Assembly (NCBI GenBank): GCA_025201845.1
Contig: MU603976.1
Location: forward strand, 48,211 to 112,210
Source: Martensiomyces pterosporus
Taxonomy: Eukaryota > Kickxellomycota > Kickxellomycetes > Kickxellales > Kickxellaceae
Direction of reading: 5' to 3'
Length of the DNA: 64,000 nucleotides
Position 1 is the first letter of the stretch. Each line of letters opens with the position of its first letter. The notes beneath the pieces are model-generated. The model did not search any database and was not told the DNA's origin. It worked only from the letters and a program-made list of their open reading frames with translations. The position numbers and the translations under genes are program-made. Below, one piece after another: positions 7,835 to 22,565 of this stretch.

Positions 7835-9309
7835 ATGTATGTGCCCGACACCAGCCATCTCGCATCGGGCACAAACGCCAGTGCTTGGGGCTACTCCGCT
7901 GACGCGGTGGCTCGCCGCCACTATGCGCCACTATTCCCTCGCAGCTCTGGTGATTCTACCAGTTCTACCAATTCTACCACCACCGACAGCACAGCAGCCA
8001 GCCCCAAGACGTCCACAACCCTGTCAAAGCAAGCATGGAACATTGTTGCTTACGTCCTGTTCACTCTTGTGCTTGCCATTGGGATGTATAGCCTGAAAGG
8101 TACGCAAGTTACAGGTGCTTTCGTGTTTGACACCAGCCCTCGCTGCCTATTTTTCTTGTTAATTGCCCGCCCTGCTCCTAGCGCATGCCATGTGACCACA
8201 TCAGCCGGCTCACGGCTCCCAATCTGCAGATCGCCCTTGCTCCACTGAGGTTCGCGGGGAATTGCGGCCTGCTGCATTTCTTTACGCATTAAGGAACTGC
8301 TCCTGCTCTAGCCCCGCCATCTGCTACCGTCCATTCGCGGAGGTGGGCGCCTGAGCTTGGTAGTCCATATGAGTGCGCATGGAGGAGTAGGCAAGCCAGC
8401 TGTATCAGAGAGAACAGCTGTAGGAGCACGAGCCTGTCTGCCCGCCTCTCATCGCCATTATGCACGTGCGCGGAGAAATAAATAGATCAAGGAGCCTTCT
8501 GATGCATGTTTCCCAAGACATGTCGCATGCTGCATCTTTCCTCTCTTGCTTTCTCTCGTGCCCTTCCTCACAGCTATATATTCCCCTCTCTTTTCATTCA
8601 GCCGCAACACGCCTGTCTTGGTGCAGCCTACTAAATCCTTTTGTCTGAAGCCATGCATTTGTCCGAGATGCTGCTAGGCATGTACTATCGGAGAGCAGAG
8701 CGCAGGCGAGTGCGGCACGAAAAGCACCACAACCCACTGACTGAGGCTGACCTCGATATCCTGCCCAAGTACGAGCTCAACGAAGAGTCGATCGCCGATA
8801 TTCTTCGTCCCCACGACCGCCGCCGGTATCTGATCAACTCCAGCGGCGTGCAGCAGGCTACTCTGACCGCTCCTGAGCCAGCACATCTGGCACCTGAACA
8901 ACCCAGCACACACCCTGTGTCAGATCAGCAGCAGCAGCAGCAGCCTAGTGGAAGTGCCCCTGCCGAGGGGAAGGGTAAGGAGGTGTTGACTGTTGTCTCT
9001 GAAACACCCACTGACGAGACTGAGGAATCACGATACGCGCCTACTGAAACCAGCGCTAGCTGCGTGATCTGCTTGGAAGACTATGCGATTGGAGAGGTTG
9101 TCCGAGTCCTCCCTTGCGGGCACGTCTTCCACGATGACTGCATCACACACTGGCTCCTGCGCCCCAAGACCAAGTTCCATGACTGTCCGATGTGCAAGAC
9201 CCCCTGCTTTCCCGAAGAGGTAATAGCAAAGGCGCACGAGGAGGCTAGAAGGACCAGCGAGGTTGAGGCCCAAAGAAACTCGCGAACTGCAATTGTCTCG
9301 GTGTTCTAA
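7835..9309 (+). CDS. Membrane-anchored RING-H2 ubiquitin ligase, first of a tandem pair
   Basis: Two exons, 7835-8099 and 8678-9309, give 298 residues. Exon 1 encodes a Ser/Thr-rich, possibly lumenal N-terminus and one transmembrane helix ([19 protein letters not shown]). Exon 2 starts at the basic [10 protein letters not shown] stop-transfer stretch and carries a C3H2C3 RING-H2 finger (CVICLEDY, then [10 protein letters not shown], then CPMC) at about residues 216-264, so it is probably a membrane E3 ligase. The 578-base intron is unusually long. I chose the acceptor TAG at 8677 because every other intron here ends in TAG; an AG at 8650 is also in frame and would add nine residues. A TACTAAAT branch-like site lies at 8629. 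Confidence 0.75.
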
Positions 9310-9773: not shown

Positions 9774-10571
9774 ATGGAGATATATAGCTATAACCCAAAC
9801 AACCTGCTCATATCAACCATCATTGGAGGAGTGCTTGGGTTCGTCTTGCTGCTGCTCTTTTACATGATCCTAGTAGGTATGTATCTCATGTGTGCTCTTT
9901 GCTTTTCGGAGTGACCCAGGGTTCTCTATAGGAGCAGCTTATGACACCGCTCTTGTTGTCTTTTGTGCCTACTGGTAGCTTACTACCGACAAACTCGAGT
10001 AGGCGTGGAATGCAGCTCAGGCCCGCCATTTTGCTGTGCTGGTCTTGGCCGCCGCTTGGAAGGAGCAACGCCAATTGCACATGCCAGCAATGCCCACAAT
10101 CGCTATCCAGTAGACCGCATTGCACCCGAGACTGCGAGTATGGATCGCATTCCAGTGGATCTTTTCAACGTCAACACATATGCTGCCTACAACCGCGCCA
10201 CGCCGCATCCTGGAATGTCTTCTACATCTCTGGGGATAGCAGTGGGGCAAGAAGAGCCATTGAATGACAAGATAACAAGCCCGTGCGTTGCGCATCTGTA
10301 CCATCAACTCAGCGGCGGGCTAGATGTGTACTCCAGCAATGATGTGCTGGTATGGACACATGGCAGACGGCAAAGGAGGTCTTGGTTCCAAACCGGGTGT
10401 TCGATCTGTCTAGAGCCGTTTTCAGACCGCCAGCTGCTAAGGCACTTGGCCTGTGGCCACCCGTTCCATGCGGTTTGCATAGACAAGTGGTTCAGCCAGA
10501 ATGCACAAAAGGACCCTGTCTGTCCGCTCTGCCAGGCACCACATGCCCACTACAGTCGTGTAATTCTGTAA
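9774..10571 (+). CDS. Membrane-anchored RING-H2 ubiquitin ligase, second of a tandem pair
   Basis: Two exons, 9774-9876 and 9979-10571, give 231 residues; the first exon is missed if only single open frames are read. Exon 1 encodes a short polar N-terminus and one membrane helix (STIIGGVLGFVLLLLFYMIL). The 102-base intron runs from GTATGT to TAG and splits an Ala codon directly before YYRQTR. A RING-H2 finger (CSICLEPF, then ACGHPFHAVC, then CPLC) fills the C-terminus. The layout, with one helix, an intron just after it, a YYR motif and a C-terminal RING, matches the upstream gene, so the two are probably an old tandem duplication. The targets are unknown. The gene converges on VTC4. Confidence 0.8.
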
Positions 10572-10781: not shown

Positions 10782-13700
10782 TTACAGACCACTTTTTACC
10801 TTGAGGTAAAAGTTCAGAACCACAGCAGCGATCAAAATGATAACAAGGATGGTAGGGCCCTTGCGGTCGTCGTAGGGACCAGAGTCGCGCTGGCGGATGC
10901 GCTCAGCGCGCCACTGGAACAGCAGCAGTGCGTAGACCATGACAAACATAGCAATCAGGGTGAACACAGCGCCAGCGATTCTTCCGGTCTGGTCTCCAAA
11001 GTTCAGCAGCCCCAGAGCAAGCGACCCAAGGACGATGGAAAAGTTGAGCCAGGCGAGGAAGGTGCGCTCGTTGGCGAAGAACACCTTGGGCTCGACGCGC
11101 ACAGGAACGGCGATGCGCTTCTGGTTGCTGCCACCAGCGGACTGCTGGGCAATAAATGGTGCATCGCGGGTAGGCTCGCCGCGGCTGCTGTGGCTCGAAG
11201 AAGAGAAGGGGTTGATCTGCTGGAGGAGCCACGGCAGACCCGACGCTGCGCTTCTTCTCCTGCCCCTCGAGCGACTGCTGCCCCCTAGAAGCGCGGACTC
11301 CTCGTTGACTGTTCGGTCGGCGTCATCGTCGTAGCTGTTGGTGTACCTGGATTGGCTGCCATCGTTTTGGCTCGAGTTCTCCCCAGGCTCTTCCTCTACA
11401 ATTACCTCGATGTCGGGCTGGTACTGGCTGCTGTTATTCGAGCGTGAGCTGCTGCCACGGTGGCGCACAAGGTTGTCGATGTCCACCATGCTGCCTCGGG
11501 GACTCGATGCGCGCGAGACACCAATGTCCTTGATGACAGGCTTGCGGATGTCGCGGTCCATCTGGGAGAACCAGAAGGGGAAGACATCGACACGGTCCTC
11601 GAGCAGTGTGGATACGCCGTGGATGAACTTGCTGAACTTTGGCACGGCCTCGACGAGGTGGCTGTTGATCAGGTCGTCGACCCACTGGGGTGGCTCAACA
11701 CCCGACTGCGTCTGGAGCTTGACCTCAAGGATAGCGTAGGGGAAGCGGCAGACATCCTTTTCGGGGAGCTGGGAGAACGGGTAGTCGACGCCGATATCGG
11801 TGCGGCGCCAGTTGTCTCCGGCACGGGACTTGCCATCAAATCCATCTTCACGCACCATGGTCAGCTCAGTGTCAAGAGAGATGCGGACACGGGCATCGCC
11901 TGGAAGCTGAAAAGCCGTGCGGTTGTAGAATGTTCTCACGACTACAGAAAAGGCAAGGGACAGGATTTAAATAAGAATGACAGTTTGGGGGGGGGGGTTG
12001 CAGGAGACGATCAGTTGCACAAGTGTCTGGTGTGGAAGTGATAGCAGCGGTTTGGCGCGGTACAGCGGGGCTATCCAGACATCGGAGCAACGTGGTCCAA
12101 GTGCAGGCGCGGTGGTATGTGCGTTCACATGCGGGGTGCCCTCCACTCAACGCAAAAACAATGGAATCGAGGCTGCACCCAAGGGGGAGTGGCTGCTTGC
12201 GCGACATTGTCTGGAAAAGCAGACTCGGAGAAAAGCGCCAGCGCCCAGCCAGCAGCGCCAGGACATGCAGCCGATGCAACAATCGTGCCCGGCAGCGCAC
12301 TGCATCTGATTCAGGGCAGGCAGGTGCAGGGGGACAGCGCGTGGTGTGCATAAGAAAATTCACATTGTAGATGCTCCTTGCAGGATACATCCCAAACGGC
12401 GCATGAAACAAGCAGACCCCATGCCTTCAGGGAATAGCGGCTGCATCTTTGCAGCATATGGCACGGGTAAAGGAGCAGCAGCCGAATGGCGAGATGGCTG
12501 CCGCAAATTGGCAAACCGGAGGTGAAGGAGGGAAATGTAGGGTGCAGAGTTGCATTGCAGCAGCATGCAAGCGAGGGCGATGATGCTAATGAGCATGCAC
12601 GAGCTGCATGTGGATTAGTGTACTTACCAGGCACAAGGTGCTTCTTTTCAACGCTGGCTTGGACTTCGTAAGCAAGCGTCTCCATGTCCTGGAGGTCCTG
12701 GTCGCTCTTCTTGCCCTCCTCGCGCAGCTTGCGGATCTTTGCGTCAAGCGTGTACCTGCCAGCCAAGTAGTCGTTGACGTACTTCTCCTTGAGCGAAAAG
12801 CGCTCCTTGACGCTCTTCTCGCCGGTCCAGTCCTCGTGGTGCGTCTTTCGCTCGATGAAGATCTCGTTGCTCTCCATGTCGCCGTACCAGCGCAGGCGGA
12901 TAGCCTCGGCGCCCTCGCTCTTCTCGATGCGGCCCTGATAGAGGTCAACGCCCTCATTGTCAAAATAGATGCTGGTGATGGCCGGATTGGGGGGCTTCGA
13001 GGCGCCCTTTGTGCGGTAGATCAGCACAGGCAGGTACTTGAGGATGTACAGCTTGAGCTCCATGACGTTGTCGGGGTGGACCCAGTACTTTGTAGTCTGG
13101 CGCACAAAGTTCTGGCCGTTTCCAGACTGCGGATCTTTGCCCTGATCGACATCAACGCCGCCGTTGCGAACGATGTTGTAGAGACGAGAGAGCTCGAGAA
13201 GGAGCTCATCAAAGTTTTCCTTGAAGAAGGGCTTTTGGTTGAGGCGCACAGTGAACACAGGCTTGAGAACAAAGGGAGCGTTCTTGTCGTGCTTCTTCAC
13301 GATCTTGATGAATGCCGTGAAGTTGAGGCGGGTGAACTTTGCGAGCTCATACACCTCGCTGATCACAGCATCGATCTCCTTTTCGATGATGTCGAGCTGC
13401 TCACGCTTGGCTTCTGTAGGGGCATTGTTCTCAGTAATGAGGTTGACCTGCTGCTCGCAGTATTCAATGCGGCGCTTCATCTCGCCGCTCTTGGTCTGCT
13501 GGAAGTTGTTGACCTACAGTTGCCAGACAACAAGCACCCGATCCAGACACCAAATTTGCGGTTGGCACGTGCCACACATTAAGCATCAACAGGGGAAAAG
13601 AGAAACCTGGCAGTATATTAGAGCCACATGCTGCTACGTGGCTGCCACCAAGCACTGGAGGTGGCACACAGAGCTGGGGCCTGGCTCTTGCACAGCAGGC

Positions 13701-14025
13701 CACTTCCAACTGGCGCCTCCCCCTGCCCGCACACGCAAGCACGCGAATGCATGCGCTGGCAGACCGCTACGCACGAATAAATAGCAAGGCGGGTGCAGGA
13801 AACGTGCATCGGGGGTGGCGTATAGGGGAATCGATGGAACAAGGGTGCGGTTCTGTTTACCTTTTCGAGCTCTCCCTCGAGGAGGTTGACAAACTCAGCC
13901 TCGTCGTCGGCTGTGTATCCCTTGTCCGCGCGCTCATACAGGAACCGCTTCAGGTTCGAGTAGTCGACGTAGTAGAACTTCCAATCGGGAAAGAGCGATT
14001 CTCGAAGCTGCTGGCCAAACTTCAT
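10782..14025 (-). CDS. VTC4: VTC4, catalytic subunit of the vacuolar polyphosphate polymerase
   Basis: Three exons on the minus strand, 14025-13861, 13513-12628 and 11941-10782, encode 736 residues (yeast Vtc4 has 721). Residues 1-140 form an SPX domain; Tyr22, Lys26 and the lysine cluster at 125, 128, 129 and 132 that bind inositol pyrophosphates are all present. The triphosphate-tunnel domain follows with its basic catalytic residues: IRLRWYG near 260, IERKTHH near 277, ILEVK near 424 and VPKFSKF near 448. An acidic Ser-rich linker (about 490-620) leads to a three-helix DUF202 domain. The enzyme makes polyphosphate from ATP at the vacuole membrane. The introns of 347 and 686 bases are long for this window. 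It heads a four-gene VTC cluster. Confidence 0.95.
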
Positions 14026-14252
14026 TGCTGGCTGCTATTGCTGCTGTGGTATTTTTCTATATAGGACAGAAATCGGTGTGCACTGTTTAGGAGGAAAGTG
14101 GTATTAGCCGCGTGCGCAGATGTTGATGCCAGTGCAGCCTGGTGCAGGGGCAGTGGGGCAGCAAAGCAAGCGGAAAGTCCAAAGCGGGAAAAGAGAAAAT
14201 CAGAAGGGTTGAAAAAAGAAAGGCAGTTCGGGCGAAGATGCGATTTGCAGGG

Positions 14253-14260
14253 TATTTATA
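14253..14260 (-). promoter_or_regulatory. TATA box candidate for VTC4 (proximal)
   Basis: TATAAATA on the minus strand, about 230 bases upstream of the VTC4 ATG. The distance fits a normal fungal promoter with a short leader. Confidence 0.4.
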
Positions 14261-15088
14261 TCAGCTGTCGCTTTTTCCGGTGTGCCACTAGGGGAGGCAG
14301 GTGGGGGAGCCGGGGATAGGGGGCACGGCAGCTGGCAGGGGATGATATAGGGACAGCGGTAGATGAAGCGCAAGGTTCTACATAGCGCGCTTCGTCACAC
14401 GCTATTTCACCTGCGCTGAATCGATAACGACACTGATACACCAGACAAAGGGTCCTGGGAAACGACCAAGGAAGCGGGGGCAAACGAGGGAGAAGGGCGG
14501 GTGTGGGCAGAAGGCGTGATTGATGCGGTTTCTTGTAAACAGAACCTTCGGTGCATTTCGCGAGGCTGCTGGGCGAAGCAGGAGATCAGCTAAAGCCGTG
14601 CGCACAATGGGATGGACATTGAATGGGTGTGAAGGAAACAGCATAATGGCGATGCTGCATACATGGTGTGTAGTGGCATATATGCGAGCATTCTTCTGCA
14701 TGCTGGCACGGTGGTAGGAAGCATGGTGGTCGCTGGTTGTTCGGGCTGGCAAGCAGCGGCGGAGCTGTATAGTGCGCGTGCTGCGTGGCGTTTGTTGTTG
14801 TGCACAGCAAAAGCCTGAAGGCCACGCCTATGCGCAGGCGCTGCCCGCCGCAGTGCGGCCAGGCGGCAGCAGCACCCATGTGTTGGGGGATGGGTAGAAA
14901 GGAGAGCGAGCACTTACACTTTAAGGACGAAACAGCAAGGGTGACTTGTGGCCGTTCTGGGATTAAAGATGTGCGTTCCTTTGGGGAGGGGGTAGCTGGT
15001 GGTGGCTGTGGCTGCAGAAAGGATGTGTGGATGGGGAGGGGGCAGTGCTCAGCAGAAGCGAAGAGCACGGGCGAGGAGGTACCTTTGC

Positions 15089-15096
15089 TATTTATA
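15089..15096 (-). promoter_or_regulatory. Second TATA box candidate on the VTC4 strand (distal)
   Basis: The same TATAAATA octamer lies 1.06 kb upstream of VTC4. A C/T-rich stretch follows and then a GTAAGT donor at 14917. This would fit a distal start site with a spliced 5' leader ending at a TAG near 14053. This is inference only. Confidence 0.25.
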
Positions 15097-16373
15097 TCGG
15101 ACGTGAACGGCGCTTGGGCACCACGGCTTCCCTGGATATGCGGCAGCTGTGCTGGCAGCTTTCCCAAGTGCTCCAAAGCTGCCCGACAATGAGGGGTACA
15201 GAGATCGCCCGCAACGGCGGTGTCGGCAGTGCGCAGTGCTGTGACTCGGGTGTGAGGTTGCCTTTAGGAGAGCTACACCCGCCGTTGGGTTGTTCTTCGG
15301 CGGAGGATGAAAGAGATAATAGGCGGTGGCGACAGCTGAAACCTTCTATTTTGGCTCTGCGAGCTTGCTAGAGTGGCAATGGTCACACCCACGCCGCGCT
15401 TATCTCTCTGTCTGTGTGCGACTCCCAGCCGCCCAACAACCCGCCCAGCCCATGAACCAGATAGAACGCACATTTCATTTTGCGTGCTGCTTCAGCTACA
15501 TTGATCACCAAGCGCGACTGGCATATGCGCGGGGGCATCACGCAGCCAAACACGTCTGTGGCCAGGAAACGGATGGGAATAATGCCCGGTGCCTTGAGCG
15601 CGCGGTTTTGCCGTAGATGCTGCTGGTCTCCGCTCGCCTTGAGAACCCTTGATGCCCCGGTAATTTCTCGCCCCCGTCCCGCACCATGTGCTGAGCATGC
15701 TGAGGCTGCCTCGGTGTTGCAAGAAAGGAAACCGTGTGGCGATTGAATTGGCGTGGAGACCGCAAGCCTTGGCCAAAAACGTGAATTAACCGATGGCAGA
15801 TGGAGCGGTGCGGGGGAGCCTGATGCCAGCCAGCTCTGGGCCATTCAATGGTCCCATGTGGTTCCACGGCGCGCTTCGATTGGCTGGCTCCGTTTTCTGG
15901 AGGAGTGCTGCAGCTAGTGTTAACACCCAAATGCCAGCGTACCTGCCAAGATGCCGATCTGCGGGAGCAGGCACAGCGCATTTCGCCAATTTCTGGCATG
16001 CCTTGTTCTTTGACCCTGCGAAATCGGGACCTGCGGCAGCCAAAGCTGAGTTAGTGGGTAGATTTGCGATTGGGGGCAGGGCAAGGGAGGGGGGTGGCTG
16101 GGCACCCGCCCCATGCCCCTCCTCCTCGTGCCACCCGGAAGAAGGGCCTGCAGGCTCCAATCGATGGTGCTCAGCCATGGCTTCTTCCCCCGTCAGCACA
16201 CGCAAGCTGCTCTTGCTTGTTCGCTCGGCGCCTTTGCTCTTGACCTGTTTTCTTCCCTCCGTACTTCTACCTGCTGCACACGGACGCACGCTGTCTTTCC
16301 TCTGAATATACTCTTACTCCCAGAACAGCAAAATTTGCAGCTGCAGTCGCACTCACACAATACACAAGTAGCA

Positions 16374-16793
16374 ATGTCGCAAACAGCACGCACACCGCAG
16401 GTCGACTTTTCGCTCATTCGGCCCAAGAACTACTTTGCCAACGAGCGCACATTCATCAACTGGCTCCAGCTTGCCGTGACCATGGGCGGCCTTGGCCTGG
16501 CGCTGCTGAACTTTGGCGGCGATGGTATTCGCGTGCGCATCTCTGCGTTTGTCTTTGAGACCGGCGCGCTGGCCCTGATCGTGTACGCATACGTTATGTT
16601 CTGGTCAAGGGCCGAGAGACTGCGCCGCGGCGAGCGCGGTACGTGGGACGACCGCTTTGTCCCCGTGGTTGTAGTGATATTCTTTATCTTTGCCACTGCG
16701 GTCAACTTTGGGCTGACATTCCACAAGAAGGCATACACCCCTCCGCTGGACAAGCTTTCTGCCACCACCATGTCCTGGGGCGAGAAGAGCTGA
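16374..16793 (+). CDS. Divergent VTC1-like DUF202 membrane protein
   Basis: A 139-residue protein consisting almost entirely of one DUF202 domain with three membrane helices. The hallmark NYFANERTFINWLQLA is present, as are the RAERLRR and DDR motifs of the loop between helices 2 and 3. It lacks the [12 protein letters not shown] lead-in shared by true VTC1 and VTC4 and is clearly different from the VTC1 gene 690 bases downstream. It may be a second small channel-forming subunit of the VTC complex or a related membrane protein. Start chosen at the first ATG before the conserved part. No introns. A tetranucleotide repeat lies just downstream. Confidence 0.8.
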   Translation: MSQTARTPQVDFSLIRPKNYFANERTFINWLQLAVTMGGLGLALLNFGGDGIRVRISAFVFETGALALIVYAYVMFWSRAERLRRGERGTWDDRFVPVVVVIFFIFATAVNFGLTFHKKAYTPPLDKLSATTMSWGEKS

Positions 16794-17482
16794 GCGTGCT
16801 GCGATAGCTGTTTCTTAGCGATCCCTCTTCACCTTTTACAGTTTCCTTCAAATTGCACTCTACAATTGTATATTGCACGCAGTGGGGCTGCTCAGAAGCA
16901 CAGTTTGCTTAGTGCTATTTAGCTCGGAGTAGGCAGGCAGGCAGGCAGGCAGGCAGGCGGCTGCAGCACCCGAGAGCATCAATGGAATGTGGGCATTGTC
17001 TGGTCCGCTCTACTCTGCAGGCTGCAACACAACCACAGCACTATGTTGCCGGCGTGCGCTTGGGCGCTTGGGCTCTAGGAGCGATCCAGCTTCTCGCCGT
17101 CGGAGAGGCGGAGGATAGAAAGGGGGTGTTGAGTATATGAGTAACTTACACCCCCCAAGCGTAATAGTGCACCCACGACTCCCCTTCTCCTACGCACAGC
17201 CATCAGCTGCGCTTGCTCCTTCCCCCATCTGAGCCTTTCCCCCATCTGGGCGTCTGCGCTAAGAGCCTATCACCCTCCCTCAAGCAAGCATGCCCCTCAC
17301 CCCCAAACCCCTCTTGCCTTTGCGTGGTCGTAGCTGGTATTAAACGCTCGGTTCTTGCTCTTGCCTCGCCTCCCGCTGCTGCTCCTCTTGCACAACTCTC
17401 CTCCCTGCGGTTTTTCTCTTCTCTTCTCTCCTGCCCTTATCTCCCTCAAAGAAAGCTGCTCTTGTAATAAAATAAAAAAGAC
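16794..17482. other. Intergenic region upstream of VTC1
   Basis: About 690 bases with an AGGC tetranucleotide repeat (16931-16958), a TATATGA element near 17134 and a long C/T-rich tract reaching the VTC1 start. No gene seen. Confidence 0.4.
16931..16958. repeat. (AGGC)7 microsatellite
   Basis: Seven uninterrupted AGGC units in the spacer between the DUF202 paralog and VTC1. Such a repeat is likely variable in length. Confidence 0.9.
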
Positions 17483-17956
17483 ATGTCGCTAAACACAGAC
17501 GCCAGCGTCATTGCCGTTCAGGGCCACCGCCAAAGCCACGAAGAGGGCCTGTCATTCAACAGCAACAACAACACATCCTATGGCAGCGTTCCGTTTGTCG
17601 CACGCCACGACAACCCTGGCAAGCGCATCGCCGTTCCTGTGCGTGTCGAGCCCAAGGTGTTCTTCGCCAACGAGCGCACCTTCCTCTCCTGGCTCAACTT
17701 TGCCATCGTCCTTGGATCGCTTGCCCTGGGGCTGCTGAACTTTGGAGACCAGACCGGAAAAATTGCTGGCGCTGCATTTACGCTGGTCGCCATGTTTGTC
17801 ATGGTCTACGCGCTGATGCTGTTCCAGTGGCGTGCTGAGCGCATTCGCCGACGCGATGCTGGCCCCTACGACGACCGCAAGGGCCCTACCGTCCTGGTCG
17901 TTGTGCTGATCTGCGCTATTCTTGTCAACTTTTACATGCGCTTCATCCATTCGTAA
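17483..17956 (+). CDS. VTC1: VTC1, small channel subunit of the VTC polyphosphate complex
   Basis: A 157-residue protein (yeast Vtc1 has 129) with a polar N-terminus of about 45 residues, then [20 protein letters not shown] and three membrane helices of the DUF202 domain. In yeast, Vtc1 and the membrane part of Vtc4 build the pore that moves nascent polyphosphate into the vacuole. Residues 47-136 differ from the C-terminus of VTC4 in this window at only 8 of 90 positions, and the DNA differs at 23 of 270 bases, with loss of similarity at both edges. This suggests recent exchange between the two genes. There is no intron, and the ATG is preceded by an A-rich leader. Confidence 0.93.
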
Positions 17957-18927
17957 GCAAATAAACATGCTTTTTCTCTACGGCAAGCTCTGCTGCTCGC
18001 TCTGCGTTGTGTGTGGAGCGGATCGGCTGCTATGCACGTGGCCCTTTACCGCCGTCGCCCTTCGCTTTTCCTTCAACCTTTCGGCTCCCTTGAATACACC
18101 TGTGCAAATATACACCCGCTACTCCATTCACACGGCACCAATCTGCGTATGTCTCTTGCATATGGCAGCATTCTTTCTTGGGGGCGGCGATGCCGCTACT
18201 GCTCCATTAGTTCATGCCAGACTCCATCTTCCACTTGGGCAGCACCGCTGGCATTGTGCCCCCTCTCCAGGCCCTCGCCCTCATTGATGCCCCATGCAGC
18301 AGAGAAAGGCGGGATTGCCTATGCAAAAATGTCAAGAATCATGAAAATGAATGCAGCCAGGCTTGCTGGGCTCTCCCTGTACCAAGAGGAGACTCAGGGG
18401 CGGCAAGCTGTAGGATCACCCTATTCTCTCTTTCACTCTCCCACACATTCTTGCCTGCCATCGCTATTTCCTTGTGCTCTCTTTCTCTTTCTGCCTCCTT
18501 GTGCTCATCTGTCTTCTGGCTCGTATGCCTTACTACGACGACGCCCTCTAGCTCCTCCACTTTGCCGCGCACTTATAACCAGCTCTGCCCCTCCATACCC
18601 TCGCTCCCAGCCAACGTGCTCTTTCTGCCTCCCACTCGCAGAACATACCTTGGCCTCTGTCGACTTTTGTGCCCACTTGTCGCTGCAGCAAGCGGAAGGC
18701 AACCCACTCGTTGAAGCTACTAACAGCCAGGCAGCGTGGCCCCTCCCCTCTCCCACACACCCACTGCATACACATCTGAGGATACTCAAAGCAGCCCCGG
18801 TGTTACCCCAAGCCCTGCTCTCCCCAAACTAGAACCACACAGAAATAGAAAAAAACAGCACACGGCGTGGCGAACAAAGATAGGCGTGCACGAAGCACTG
18901 ACTTGCGGGAAACCCTCAGTAGCAGCC
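17957..18927. other. Intergenic region between VTC1 and the VTC2/5-like gene
   Basis: About 970 C/T-rich bases. A CACGTG E-box, the core recognised by Pho4-type bHLH factors in yeast, lies at 18035-18040, but such sites are expected about once per 4 kb by chance. An open frame on the plus strand (18011-18832) has low-complexity Ser/Pro/Leu composition and no domain. Confidence 0.45.
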
Positions 18928-21245
18928 ATGCCAGAGTCGTCGTCGTCGTCGTACACAGTTCCCGAGCCCATCTTTGCTGAGTGGGCCTATTACAACGTCA
19001 ACTACGGCCTACTATCATCACTTGCCCCTGATACAGCAGAGGCGTGCTCTTGTCAGACCGATGGTGAAGATGCTGCTGCCGAACGTGGATGCTCTGCTTG
19101 TGAGGCAATGGCCGAAGAGTACCGCAGGCAACTTGAAAAGGTAAGGCACCGCGAGCTCTGAAGAAGCGCAATACTGTCAGAATAAGCATGTTGTTTATTT
19201 GCATGGCCACGCTTGAAATCGCTCCTTTTCTTGCTCACTTCATGCTGGCGCCTTCTTTGTAGGTCAGCTCATTTCTGCATATGAAGGGGAGCGAGCTTGA
19301 GCATAGCGTCCGATCCTGTGAGCACTATCTCATGACACTTTCGACCCTCGACCATGGCGAGCAGCTGGTGGGATTAGGCCAGACCGAGGAGACCATCAGC
19401 TCAGCCATGGGCCAAATCCTCGCCCTCGCACGATTCCGCCGATCCAACTTTACAGCGCTTTGGCGGCCCCTGGACCGGCTACGCACACGCTGCAATAAGC
19501 ACCATGAGGAGCTACTCGATCTCGTTGCGTCCTCGCCGCTGTTCCGCGAGTCCTCCTTGGAGACGCAACAGCTGTACCGCACATCGCAAATGTACAACGC
19601 CATCATGCAGGCTGGGTATGCAGGTGGCGGATTTCTGGCTGAGAGCGAGGTGGCGGCATTGCAGGCATTCCCTAGCTTGGCTTTGTGGCGTGGGTGGATC
19701 AGCCCAAATAGCATAAGGAGGGTACATAAGCTGATGTGTGCCAGATTGTCTCCTGTTTACTGCGGCTGTGCCTGCAGCAACGGGTCGTCTTTATCCCAGC
19801 CAACAATGTCTGTTAGCGGTTTGTCTGCTGCTGCAGATCCTTCACCCTGCACCAGCGCACAGAAACAGCGCAAGCAACAGCAAGAGGAACCTCTCAAGGG
19901 CACTGACAGCAGAGAGAGTGCACCGCCCTCTTCGCCACAAGCATATAAATCATCGGCGTCAGCACCAGCACCAGCACCAGCACCAGCATCGATATCGATA
20001 TCGACATCAGAAGACGCATCGCCAGCACCATCGATAAAATCACTGAGCAAGAACTATGAGGACATGACAACTGTGTACTTTGACAGCACAGAGATGGCAA
20101 GATACAAGTCCGGCTTCTCGGCAGAGTCAACTAGTAAGGACTCGCTGGAGCTGTGGTGGTCGGAAAGTGGCGCTCAGACCGTGCATCTGGAGCATAGCAC
20201 ATATTCTGGCCCCTGGTTTGCTGCCGGCGCGACAAAGTCAGGCGCTACACTCGAATCTCGCTACGTGATCCCCTTTCTCAACAGCGAGTTCAATTTCGAC
20301 AGGCTCAGACCACCACCAACTCGACCACAGCAGGAAACCAAGCCGATGACAAACGGCCCTGCGGCAATAGATGTAGAGGAGGATGATGAAGCGACAGCGA
20401 CGCGGAGGCGTGTACAAGCACGAAATATGCAGAGGATCCAAAGAAGCATCATCATGGAAAACCTCAAGCCAGTGTTGGCTACAACCGAGAAGCGCACAGA
20501 GTATGTCGACGCAGCAAACCCAGACATCCGGGTGGCCCTCAGGCGCCATGTGGTCATTTCGCATGACGAGCAGATGCAGCAGTGCACCCAAAGTCAGGAC
20601 AGCCCCTGCTGGCTACAGAGGGCACTTGACGGCGCAGCTTCTAATGGGTCCATAGCTGAGCATCTGCCGTTTGCCATCATCGAAGTACACCTGGCAAACC
20701 ACTCGGTGCTGCCAGAGTGGCTGGCCCACTTGTTCTTCGAGAGCACACTTGTCCACCCGGTGCTTGACTTTGACCTGTATTCTCACGGCATCGCACTGCT
20801 GAAAGGCGACGCCGTTGAGGACCTGCCATATTGGCTGGTTGATTACCACCGGAATCTCTTTCAACCACCACTCTCCGCGGCCGCCGCCAACACAGCTTCG
20901 AGCCAGGTTCCGTCTCCCACCGCACATTCAACATCTAGCCAATCTCTCCAGATTGCGGCTGAGGGTCTGCAAAGCCCACACCCAGACCCCCAAGACTACC
21001 CCTGTGAATCCACAAGGCTTCTGCCGCTCCCAGTCTCTTCTGCGCATTCCAGAACGGCTGCAGCCAGTCGCTATTCGGTGGCAAAGCGGGCACGGTACTA
21101 TTTGTGCATCTCTTTGCTAGCTGCCATGGCCCTCGGCATTGCTCTTGCCATCTGGCCGTATCATGAGCGCCTGATGGAATTTCTAGCGGAGCTGGCCGAT
21201 CTAATTGCTCAGTGGGTTGCTAGGATGCTGCTGAGCAGCTCATAA
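18928..21245 (+). CDS. VTC2/VTC5-like SPX protein with degenerate polymerase domain
   Basis: Two exons, 18928-19140 and 19263-21245, give 731 residues. The N-terminal 150 residues resemble an SPX domain but lack the first helix; Tyr26 keeps the ligand tyrosine position while the lysine partner is Ser30, and the lysine cluster reads R, D, R, T (139-146). Residues about 340-600 follow the VTC tunnel fold (YEDMTTVYFDS, LPFAIIEVHL), but the catalytic bases are gone: IRLRW is LELWW, EVK is EVH and KFSKF is DFDLY. The C-terminus has one strong and perhaps a second membrane helix instead of DUF202. It is likely a non-catalytic accessory subunit like Vtc5. The intron sits exactly where VTC4 intron 1 does. 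Confidence 0.8.
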
Positions 21246-21468: not shown

Positions 21469-21620
21469 GTAAATAGATGTATTGCTAACAAGGAAACCAC
21501 TACTCTACTGCGGCGGCCTCCCTGCTTTTATGCCAGGAGNNNNNNNNNNGTAAATAGATGTATTGCTAACAAGGAAACCACTACTCTACTGCGGCGGCCT
21601 CCCTGCTTTTATGCCAGGAG
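21469..21620. repeat. Exact 71-base duplication flanking an N gap
   Basis: Bases 21469-21539 and 21550-21620 are identical over all 71 positions and flank the ten N at 21540-21549. The likely cause is two overlapping contig ends joined with a placeholder gap, so the true sequence may hold one copy. Confidence 0.9.
21540..21549. other. Assembly gap (ten N)
   Basis: Ten unknown bases, a common scaffolding placeholder of arbitrary size. Confidence 0.99.
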
Positions 21621-21746: not shown

Positions 21747-21818
21747 CTCCCCTGCCGGGAATTGAACCCGGGTCTCCAATGTGACAGACTGGTGTACTCG
21801 CCACTATACTACAGGAGA
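21747..21818 (-). tRNA. tRNA-Asp (anticodon GTC)
   Basis: A 72-base cloverleaf on the minus strand. The acceptor stem pairs TCTCCTG with CAGGGGA (one G-U pair), the anticodon stem pairs CCAGT with ATTGG around the loop CTGTCAC, giving anticodon GTC, and the T arm is CCGGG-TTCAATT-CCCGG with discriminator G. There is no intron. A T5 tract on the transcribed strand (21737-21741) follows within 10 bases and fits a polymerase III terminator. Confidence 0.95.
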
Positions 21819-21995: not shown

Positions 21996-22565
21996 ATGAA
22001 CAATGCATCGGTGCGGATCGGCGTCCTTGGGGATCTAGGCATCGGAAAGTCAGAGCTCGTTCACAGGATATGCCATCCAGGTAACACCGCGCCGAGCGGA
22101 ACGAGTGACTGGTCAGGACCAACTGTCGACGTACTTGATTTTGAGCGCGCAGGTGGACAGGAAAACGTATGGATCGAGTTCTTGATATTCCCCAGCGAGA
22201 CCAAGCATGCGTCGCCGCGGCAGATGCTATATGGCATTGGACTCGACGCAATATTTCTGGTTTGCGACTGCACTGTGTCCAGATCGTTCTTACATGCATC
22301 TGAATGGCTGGAAGAGGCTCGAGAAGCGCCGGGTCTGCTGAATGTGCCAACTGCATTGGTGCTTGGCGGGCCATCTATAATAGCTGACTGGGTTTCTAGC
22401 AAGGCAATCTCGCGGCTGGTGGAACCGCTGGTCGAGACATACGGCGCAAGAGTGATCAACCTGTCCGGCTTTCTTAGCGCAGCCAGGCTTGATGCAAAGC
22501 AGCAACTTCTGTTGGCAAAGTTTTACGAGTGGGTATTGAGGCGCAAACTTGCCAATTTAAAATAA
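21996..22565 (+). CDS. RABL3-like small GTPase-fold protein
   Basis: A 189-residue protein. The N-terminus has a Walker A motif (GDLGIGKS) directly after a hydrophobic strand (VRIGVLGD), as in Rab-like protein 3. The middle strand LDAIFLVCDCT and the C-terminal helix ending FYEWVLRRKL fit the Ras-like fold. At the place where RABL3 has the guanine-recognition sequence GTKLD this protein reads LGGPSI, so base specificity is doubtful. There is no C-terminal cysteine for prenylation. RABL3 has roles in cilia, trafficking and signalling in animals; its role in fungi is unknown. The gene starts 180 bases beyond the divergently transcribed tRNA-Asp. AATAAA follows the stop. Confidence 0.7.
   Translation: MNNASVRIGVLGDLGIGKSELVHRICHPGNTAPSGTSDWSGPTVDVLDFERAGGQENVWIEFLIFPSETKHASPRQMLYGIGLDAIFLVCDCTVSRSFLHASEWLEEAREAPGLLNVPTALVLGGPSIIADWVSSKAISRLVEPLVETYGARVINLSGFLSAARLDAKQQLLLAKFYEWVLRRKLANLK

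Follow-up and report, generated by a model that had tools for sequence, protein, structure and literature searches.

A Conserved Cluster of VTC Polyphosphate Polymerase Genes in Martensiomyces pterosporus and Other Kickxellaceae, with a Possibly Divided Vtc3 Subunit

The Cluster and Its Genes

This work concerns a group of polyphosphate (VTC) genes in the fungus Martensiomyces pterosporus (Kickxellaceae), found in a 64,000-nucleotide stretch of contig MU603976.1. The whole of this stretch is referred to here as the window; it is the terminal 64 kb of a contig (C48) in a genome of 17.4 Mb and 216 contigs. Within 10.5 kb of the window (10782-21245), the genes VTC4, DUF202b, VTC1 and VTC2L lie side by side (Table 1). 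Pfam profiles matched SPX, VTC and DUF202 across the VTC4 exons, DUF202 in both DUF202b and VTC1, and VTC in VTC2L, while NCBIfam gave no matches for the four proteins. A preliminary description of this DNA had reported four adjacent genes with nothing unrelated in between, and this is what was found: all four are present and adjacent, and their identities as VTC4, a DUF202 paralog, VTC1 and a non-catalytic SPX subunit are right by domain and sequence comparison. Sixteen open reading frames (ORFs) of at least 80 aa occur in the three intergenic gaps (12 between VTC4 and DUF202b, one between DUF202b and VTC1, three between VTC1 and VTC2L); none had a Pfam match above the cut-off, and thus no unrelated gene was seen among the four. 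A point to correct in the preliminary description is that transcription of VTC4 runs divergently from that of the three other genes. An operon or polycistronic transcript was ruled out by the position of VTC4 on the opposite strand and by spacings of 0.7 to 2.3 kb, with 2.3 kb between VTC4 and DUF202b.

The VTC4 model has three exons and encodes 736 aa, and that of VTC2L has two exons and encodes 731 aa. Each is 100% identical, over its full length, to a deposited M. pterosporus protein (P0013 and P0001, respectively). No M. pterosporus VTC1 or DUF202b protein was among the matches listed, so the evidence for these two models is a single open frame each, together with their relatives.

Table 1. 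Features of the VTC cluster, in positions of the window.
Feature	Positions	Strand	Basis
VTC4 exon 1: start codon, start of SPX	13861-14025	-	Pfam and gene model
VTC4 exon 2: end of SPX, first part of tunnel domain, R264/R266/K281 equivalents	12628-13513	-	
VTC4 exon 3: end of tunnel (polymerase) domain, linker, DUF202 membrane domain, stop	10782-11941	-	
DUF202b: free-standing three-helix DUF202 protein, 139 aa	16374-16793	+	
VTC1: DUF202, 157 aa	17483-17956	+	
VTC2L exon 1: start of degenerate SPX domain	18928-19140	+	
VTC2L exon 2: rest of SPX, non-catalytic tunnel domain, one clear transmembrane helix	19263-21245	+	
VTC4 membrane-domain tract highly like VTC1	10800-11120	-	
VTC1 partner of the VTC4 tract, inverted, about 6.5 kb away	17621-17941	+	

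Domain searches of the genome, which score the best candidates only, place the whole VTC family found here in the cluster. A six-frame search identified three stretches of the VTC domain, two within exons of VTC4 and the third within VTC2L. DUF202 occurs in six stretches, three of them in the cluster; the three outside it are divergent and, as read by eye, lack the Vtc1 motif PKxFFANER. SPX was found in 12 stretches; the 11 outside the cluster fit the expected presence of other SPX proteins. No VTC-domain gene or Vtc1-type gene was found outside the cluster, and, since all VTC domains found fall here, the cluster is more than chance. One of the DUF202 stretches outside (L004 1441-1854, genome G000, contig C4) is the genome's strongest DUF202 match (E 1.8e-17); it is without the Vtc1 motif and may be like bacterial YidH.

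Linkage of the Genes in Relatives

Linkage in other fungi was inferred from matches having the same organism and the same longest-contig size, which is a fingerprint and not a gene-order read-out; the longest contig of a match may belong to another member of its protein cluster. Counts for VTC4, VTC1 and DUF202b come from the matches listed, and the VTC2L list is complete at 12. The first-named organism of each match was used, the window's species is included, Coemansia erecta enters as two records, and the family of Kickxella and of the Coemansia sp. strains was taken from the genus. Two further C. erecta VTC2L rows (P0003 and P0010), whose strain was unmatched, were left out.

For 22 Kickxellaceae records, two or more of the four genes are listed; in 16 of these records at least two genes share one contig, and in 14 all listed genes do. 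In other fungi for which VTC4 and VTC1 are both listed, they share a contig in one of 14 (Benniella, on a 1.67-Mb scaffold). The difference in linkage gives a Fisher p of 0.00014, which is only a guide because related organisms are treated as independent and contig sizes differ. The six unlinked records are Coemansia sp. RSA 989, RSA 1939 and RSA 2673, C. nantahalensis, Spiromyces and Linderina pennispora. For C. spiralis and for Dipsacomyces, the listed genes are partly on other contigs.

The strongest part of the linkage evidence consists of short contigs. DUF202b and VTC1 share a contig of 3,248 bp in Linderina macrospora, VTC4 and DUF202b one of 3,573 bp in Coemansia biformis, VTC1 and VTC2L one of 3,737 bp in Dipsacomyces, and VTC4, VTC1 and DUF202b one of 7,129 bp in C. 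erecta. Taken as a set, these contigs are consistent with the order of neighbours seen in the window. In Coemansia sp. RSA 988, a single gene model (P0133, 271 aa) spans DUF202b into VTC1 and is numbered next to VTC4, and in Mycoemilia VTC4 and DUF202b share a contig of 72,536 bp.

The cluster is conserved in Kickxellaceae and is not an assembly accident. Misassembly was ruled out by the recurrence of linkage in relatives and by the absence of any N within the cluster, the sole gap of the window being at 21540-21549. A scatter of the genes in relatives, with the order limited to one misassembled scaffold, had been named in the preliminary description as a refuting outcome and was not seen, as linkage recurs in other Kickxellaceae. 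To our knowledge, fungi seldom keep the genes for the subunits of one housekeeping complex in a conserved cluster. In the titles and abstract beginnings of a part of the literature matches, nothing was found on VTC gene clustering, on VTC in Kickxellales or on VTC gene conversion.

The Encoded Subunits

VTC4 is a single protein with SPX, tunnel (VTC) and DUF202 domains, and P0013 carries PF03105, PF09359 and PF02656. Compared by eye with yeast Vtc4 alignment rows, it keeps R264, R266, K281 and E426 (RLRWYG at 261, ERKTH at 276 and AILEV at 420), of which K281 is presumably catalytic. R264, R266 and E426 of yeast Vtc4 are named as catalytic in the available part of Guan et al. 2023. The VTC1 protein scores 160 bits against yeast Vtc1, the positions of K24 and R31 are invariant in a 29-row alignment, and three hydrophobic helices were computed for its Dipsacomyces relative. 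Changes of these two residues in yeast Vtc1 raised in vitro activity and abolished the vacuolar store in cells, according to the same part of that study (Guan et al. 2023).

DUF202b has the three-helix Vtc1 fold with its pore residues, as its K18 and R25 match K24 and R31 of Vtc1 in the 29-row alignment. The N-terminal Vtc1 motif KRIAVPVRV is absent from the DUF202b rows of that alignment; the N-terminal segment of Vtc1 (yeast residues 1-21) contacts the Vtc4 linker, as described in the accessible text of Guan et al. 2023. Among the matches listed, DUF202b is 78-89% identical to its relatives, except for those of Mycoemilia and Spiromyces. The origin of DUF202b as a Vtc3 domain detached by descent is unsupported, with Vtc1 being nearest; in an 84-row tree it forms a long branch (2.89 changes per column) of unsure placement.

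VTC2L carries SPX and a non-catalytic tunnel domain as in Vtc2/Vtc3, with R264, R266 and K281 lost; its SPX domain is recognized from profile and fold comparisons but has no Pfam match. A last semi-hydrophobic helix follows its one clear transmembrane helix. No DUF202 was found in VTC2L by Pfam, and C48 has only three DUF202 stretches, none of them in this gene. The protein aligns with yeast Vtc3 in one continuous stretch (profile 10-586 to 35-612, 97.9 bits). By sequence score Vtc4 ranks first, and the SPX-tunnel arrangement fits Vtc3 better than Vtc4. The predicted structure is of low confidence, with a mean predicted local distance difference test score (pLDDT) of 56.3, so its fold matches rest on the SPX and tunnel parts. 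No Vtc5 chain is among the sequence and fold matches listed, though entry 9umg is titled as holding Vtc5. The better fit of this arrangement to Vtc3 and the non-catalytic nature of the protein make Vtc2/Vtc3-like the best name for VTC2L. The preliminary description had labelled the gene VTC2/5-like; the lack of a channel domain had been missed, and this lack changes the possible role of DUF202b.

Likeness of the VTC1 and VTC4 Membrane Domains

The VTC4 tail matches VTC1 at 90 of 107 residues and at 277 of 321 nt, and the protein identity of the two membrane domains is 84%, compared with 36% in yeast. Where agreeing residues have synonymous codons, the same codon is used in 71 of 86 cases, whereas three codon-usage sets predict 33 to 45; in 20000 simulations for each set, none reached the observed value. 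The proportion is 40 of 44 in codons 1-48, a limit set once the alignment had been inspected. For VTC2L and VTC4, which served as a control, 51 of 116 codons agree, as usage predicts. Domain trees point in the same direction. The first comprised 84 rows (79 of 235 domain stretches chosen for spread, and five more), and the second was built without the 13 DUF202b rows and without four long VTC4 rows. The VTC1 and VTC4 domains of Kickxellomycotina group together in the first tree (98/77) and in the second (96/73, not starred), and a single clade of all VTC1 domains, tested after the first tree had been seen, was rejected on the second (p-AU, from the approximately unbiased test, 0.00018). In seven Kickxellaceae, the likeness between VTC1 and VTC4 is higher within an organism than between organisms (4 of 5040 permutations); the test used seven of eight organisms, with Spiromyces left out and the C. 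spiralis pair taken from two contigs. These results suggest that some gene conversion between VTC1 and the VTC4 tail has rather probably taken place.

Several observations weigh against this reading. Both DUF202b controls exceed the codon expectation, with 28 of 45 identical codons against VTC1 (17 expected; 15 of 20000 simulations) and 27 of 44 against the VTC4 tail (26 of 20000), so these genes have a stronger codon bias than the model assumes, and the expectation is too low for them. The VTC1 domains of Kickxellomycotina as one clade were not rejected (p-AU 0.058). The 84% identity within M. pterosporus shows no same-organism excess at the protein level, as it falls below that of its VTC1 to Coemansia VTC4 (87-91%) and within that of other VTC1 to its VTC4 (81-85%). 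In Globomyces pollinis-pini (P0083 and P0192), the two membrane domains are 86% identical although their genes are on different contigs, and selection on touching helices could mimic part of the likeness. According to the alternative that these points favor, the likeness is ancestral and has been kept by selection on the shared pore, together with strong codon bias, without gene conversion. We give this alternative a smaller but appreciable chance, as it has to account for the excess of identical codons, the rejection of the all-VTC1 clade and the closeness of same-organism pairs.

Proposed Organization of the Complex and Its Alternatives

The yeast channel is a five-membered ring of DUF202 domains, to which Vtc1 contributes three and Vtc4 and Vtc3 one each, and the first membrane helix of Vtc3 appears dominant in polyphosphate discharge; both statements are from the available text of Guan et al. 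2023. The M. pterosporus proteins resemble this Vtc1/Vtc3/Vtc4 (3:1:1) complex in having an SPX-tunnel-DUF202 Vtc4 with checked catalytic residues, a Vtc1 with K24 and R31, and a non-catalytic SPX-tunnel partner. They differ from it in that the partner, VTC2L, lacks DUF202, a second free DUF202 protein is present, and the genes are adjacent. We propose, with moderate confidence, that the conserved Kickxellaceae cluster encodes every VTC polymerase subunit found here, with DUF202b in the channel place of Vtc3 and VTC2L in a regulatory role. VTC4 would make polyphosphate from ATP on the cytosolic face and feed the polymer into a five-part DUF202 channel in the vacuole membrane. Most of this channel would be supplied by VTC1 and the VTC4 tail, which may be kept alike, at least partly, by gene conversion. 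DUF202b would hold the place of the C-terminal domain of yeast Vtc3, and VTC2L, held by one membrane helix, would supply the cytosolic regulatory part only. Filling of the Vtc3 place by DUF202b is the simplest reading because VTC2L is without a channel domain and a spare one adjoins it. The fuller version, a re-partitioned VTC complex in which Vtc2/3 is functionally divided into VTC2L and DUF202b, with clustered genes and gene-converted channel domains, is put forward only tentatively. The parts belong to the known VTC family, and what is new is the gene layout and the probably divided subunit. If the proposal is true, a natural complex with the Vtc3 discharge segment on a separate protein separates synthesis, regulation and translocation of the polymer, and the cluster offers a case for following gene conversion between subunits in contact.

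The main alternative for the channel, which counts against a Vtc3-like place for DUF202b, is a ring of Vtc1 and Vtc4 alone. DUF202b and VTC2L would then be accessory, around a core of VTC1 and VTC4 as in trypanosomatids. Like yeast Vtc5, VTC2L is a non-catalytic SPX protein and could stimulate VTC likewise; Vtc5 has three C-terminal transmembrane helices, according to the part of PMC13375126 available, whereas VTC2L has one clear and one semi-hydrophobic helix. Trypanosomatids and Chlamydomonas possess Vtc1 and Vtc4 without Vtc2/3/5, with extra Vtc1-like sequences in Chlamydomonas (PMC13251457, available part). Their subunit lists thus also depart from that of yeast, but there is no Vtc2/3 at all in them, and clustering is unmentioned in that part of the source. 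The fast evolution of VTC2L (37-54% identity to its relatives) fits an accessory role as well. Nevertheless, we consider this role of the two proteins less likely, given the unbroken alignment of VTC2L with Vtc3 and the close identity of DUF202b to its relatives, with the pore residues kept.

The adjacency itself may also be explained as a leftover of local duplication, in which VTC4/VTC2L and VTC1/DUF202b are tandem paralogs and no regulatory or assembly role is attached to their position. This explanation, whose chance we put only slightly below even, draws on the domains common to the four genes and on the first introns of VTC4 and VTC2L, which have the same position and phase (LEK|V, phase 0). 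It would also account for the sequence upstream of the genes: 6- to 8-letter words common to the four 600-base upstream regions showed no excess over shuffles. The window also shows no enrichment of CACGTG (10 occurrences, 18.8 expected) or CACGTT (22, with 24.3 expected), the sites of yeast Pho4. These motif tests are weak, as a different regulator may act in this fungus. According to the preliminary description, each VTC gene of Saccharomyces has a chromosomal location apart from the others. VTC1 to VTC5 of yeast are nevertheless all under the PHO pathway, as stated in the available part of PMC7381174, so co-regulation there needs no cluster. However, 13 of the 14 other fungi listed have VTC1 and VTC4 on separate contigs, and against such scatter, linkage kept through Kickxellaceae asks for a reason or for slow rearrangement. 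Under the proposed organization, as under the preliminary description, co-regulation may follow from the cluster.

Genomic Surroundings

None of the genes flanking the cluster is phosphate-specific by domain. To the left lie an MFS transporter and two RING-finger ORFs (8641-9309 and 9963-10571), which are past the 3' end of VTC4 and are possibly tandem paralogs. To the right are a tRNA-Asp gene (21747-21818; Rfam and ARAGORN), the only one in the window, followed by an ORF without a Pfam match and a GatB gene. This ORF (21996-22565) resembles the start of a small GTPase (GDLGIGKSELVHRI) and is perhaps RABL3-like. The deposited Martensiomyces contig has 126,288 bases compared with 112,210 for C48 here, and the two assemblies differ. 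Just to the right of the cluster, at 21469-21620, a 10-N gap stands between two identical 71-base copies, as if two overlapping contig ends had been joined unmerged.

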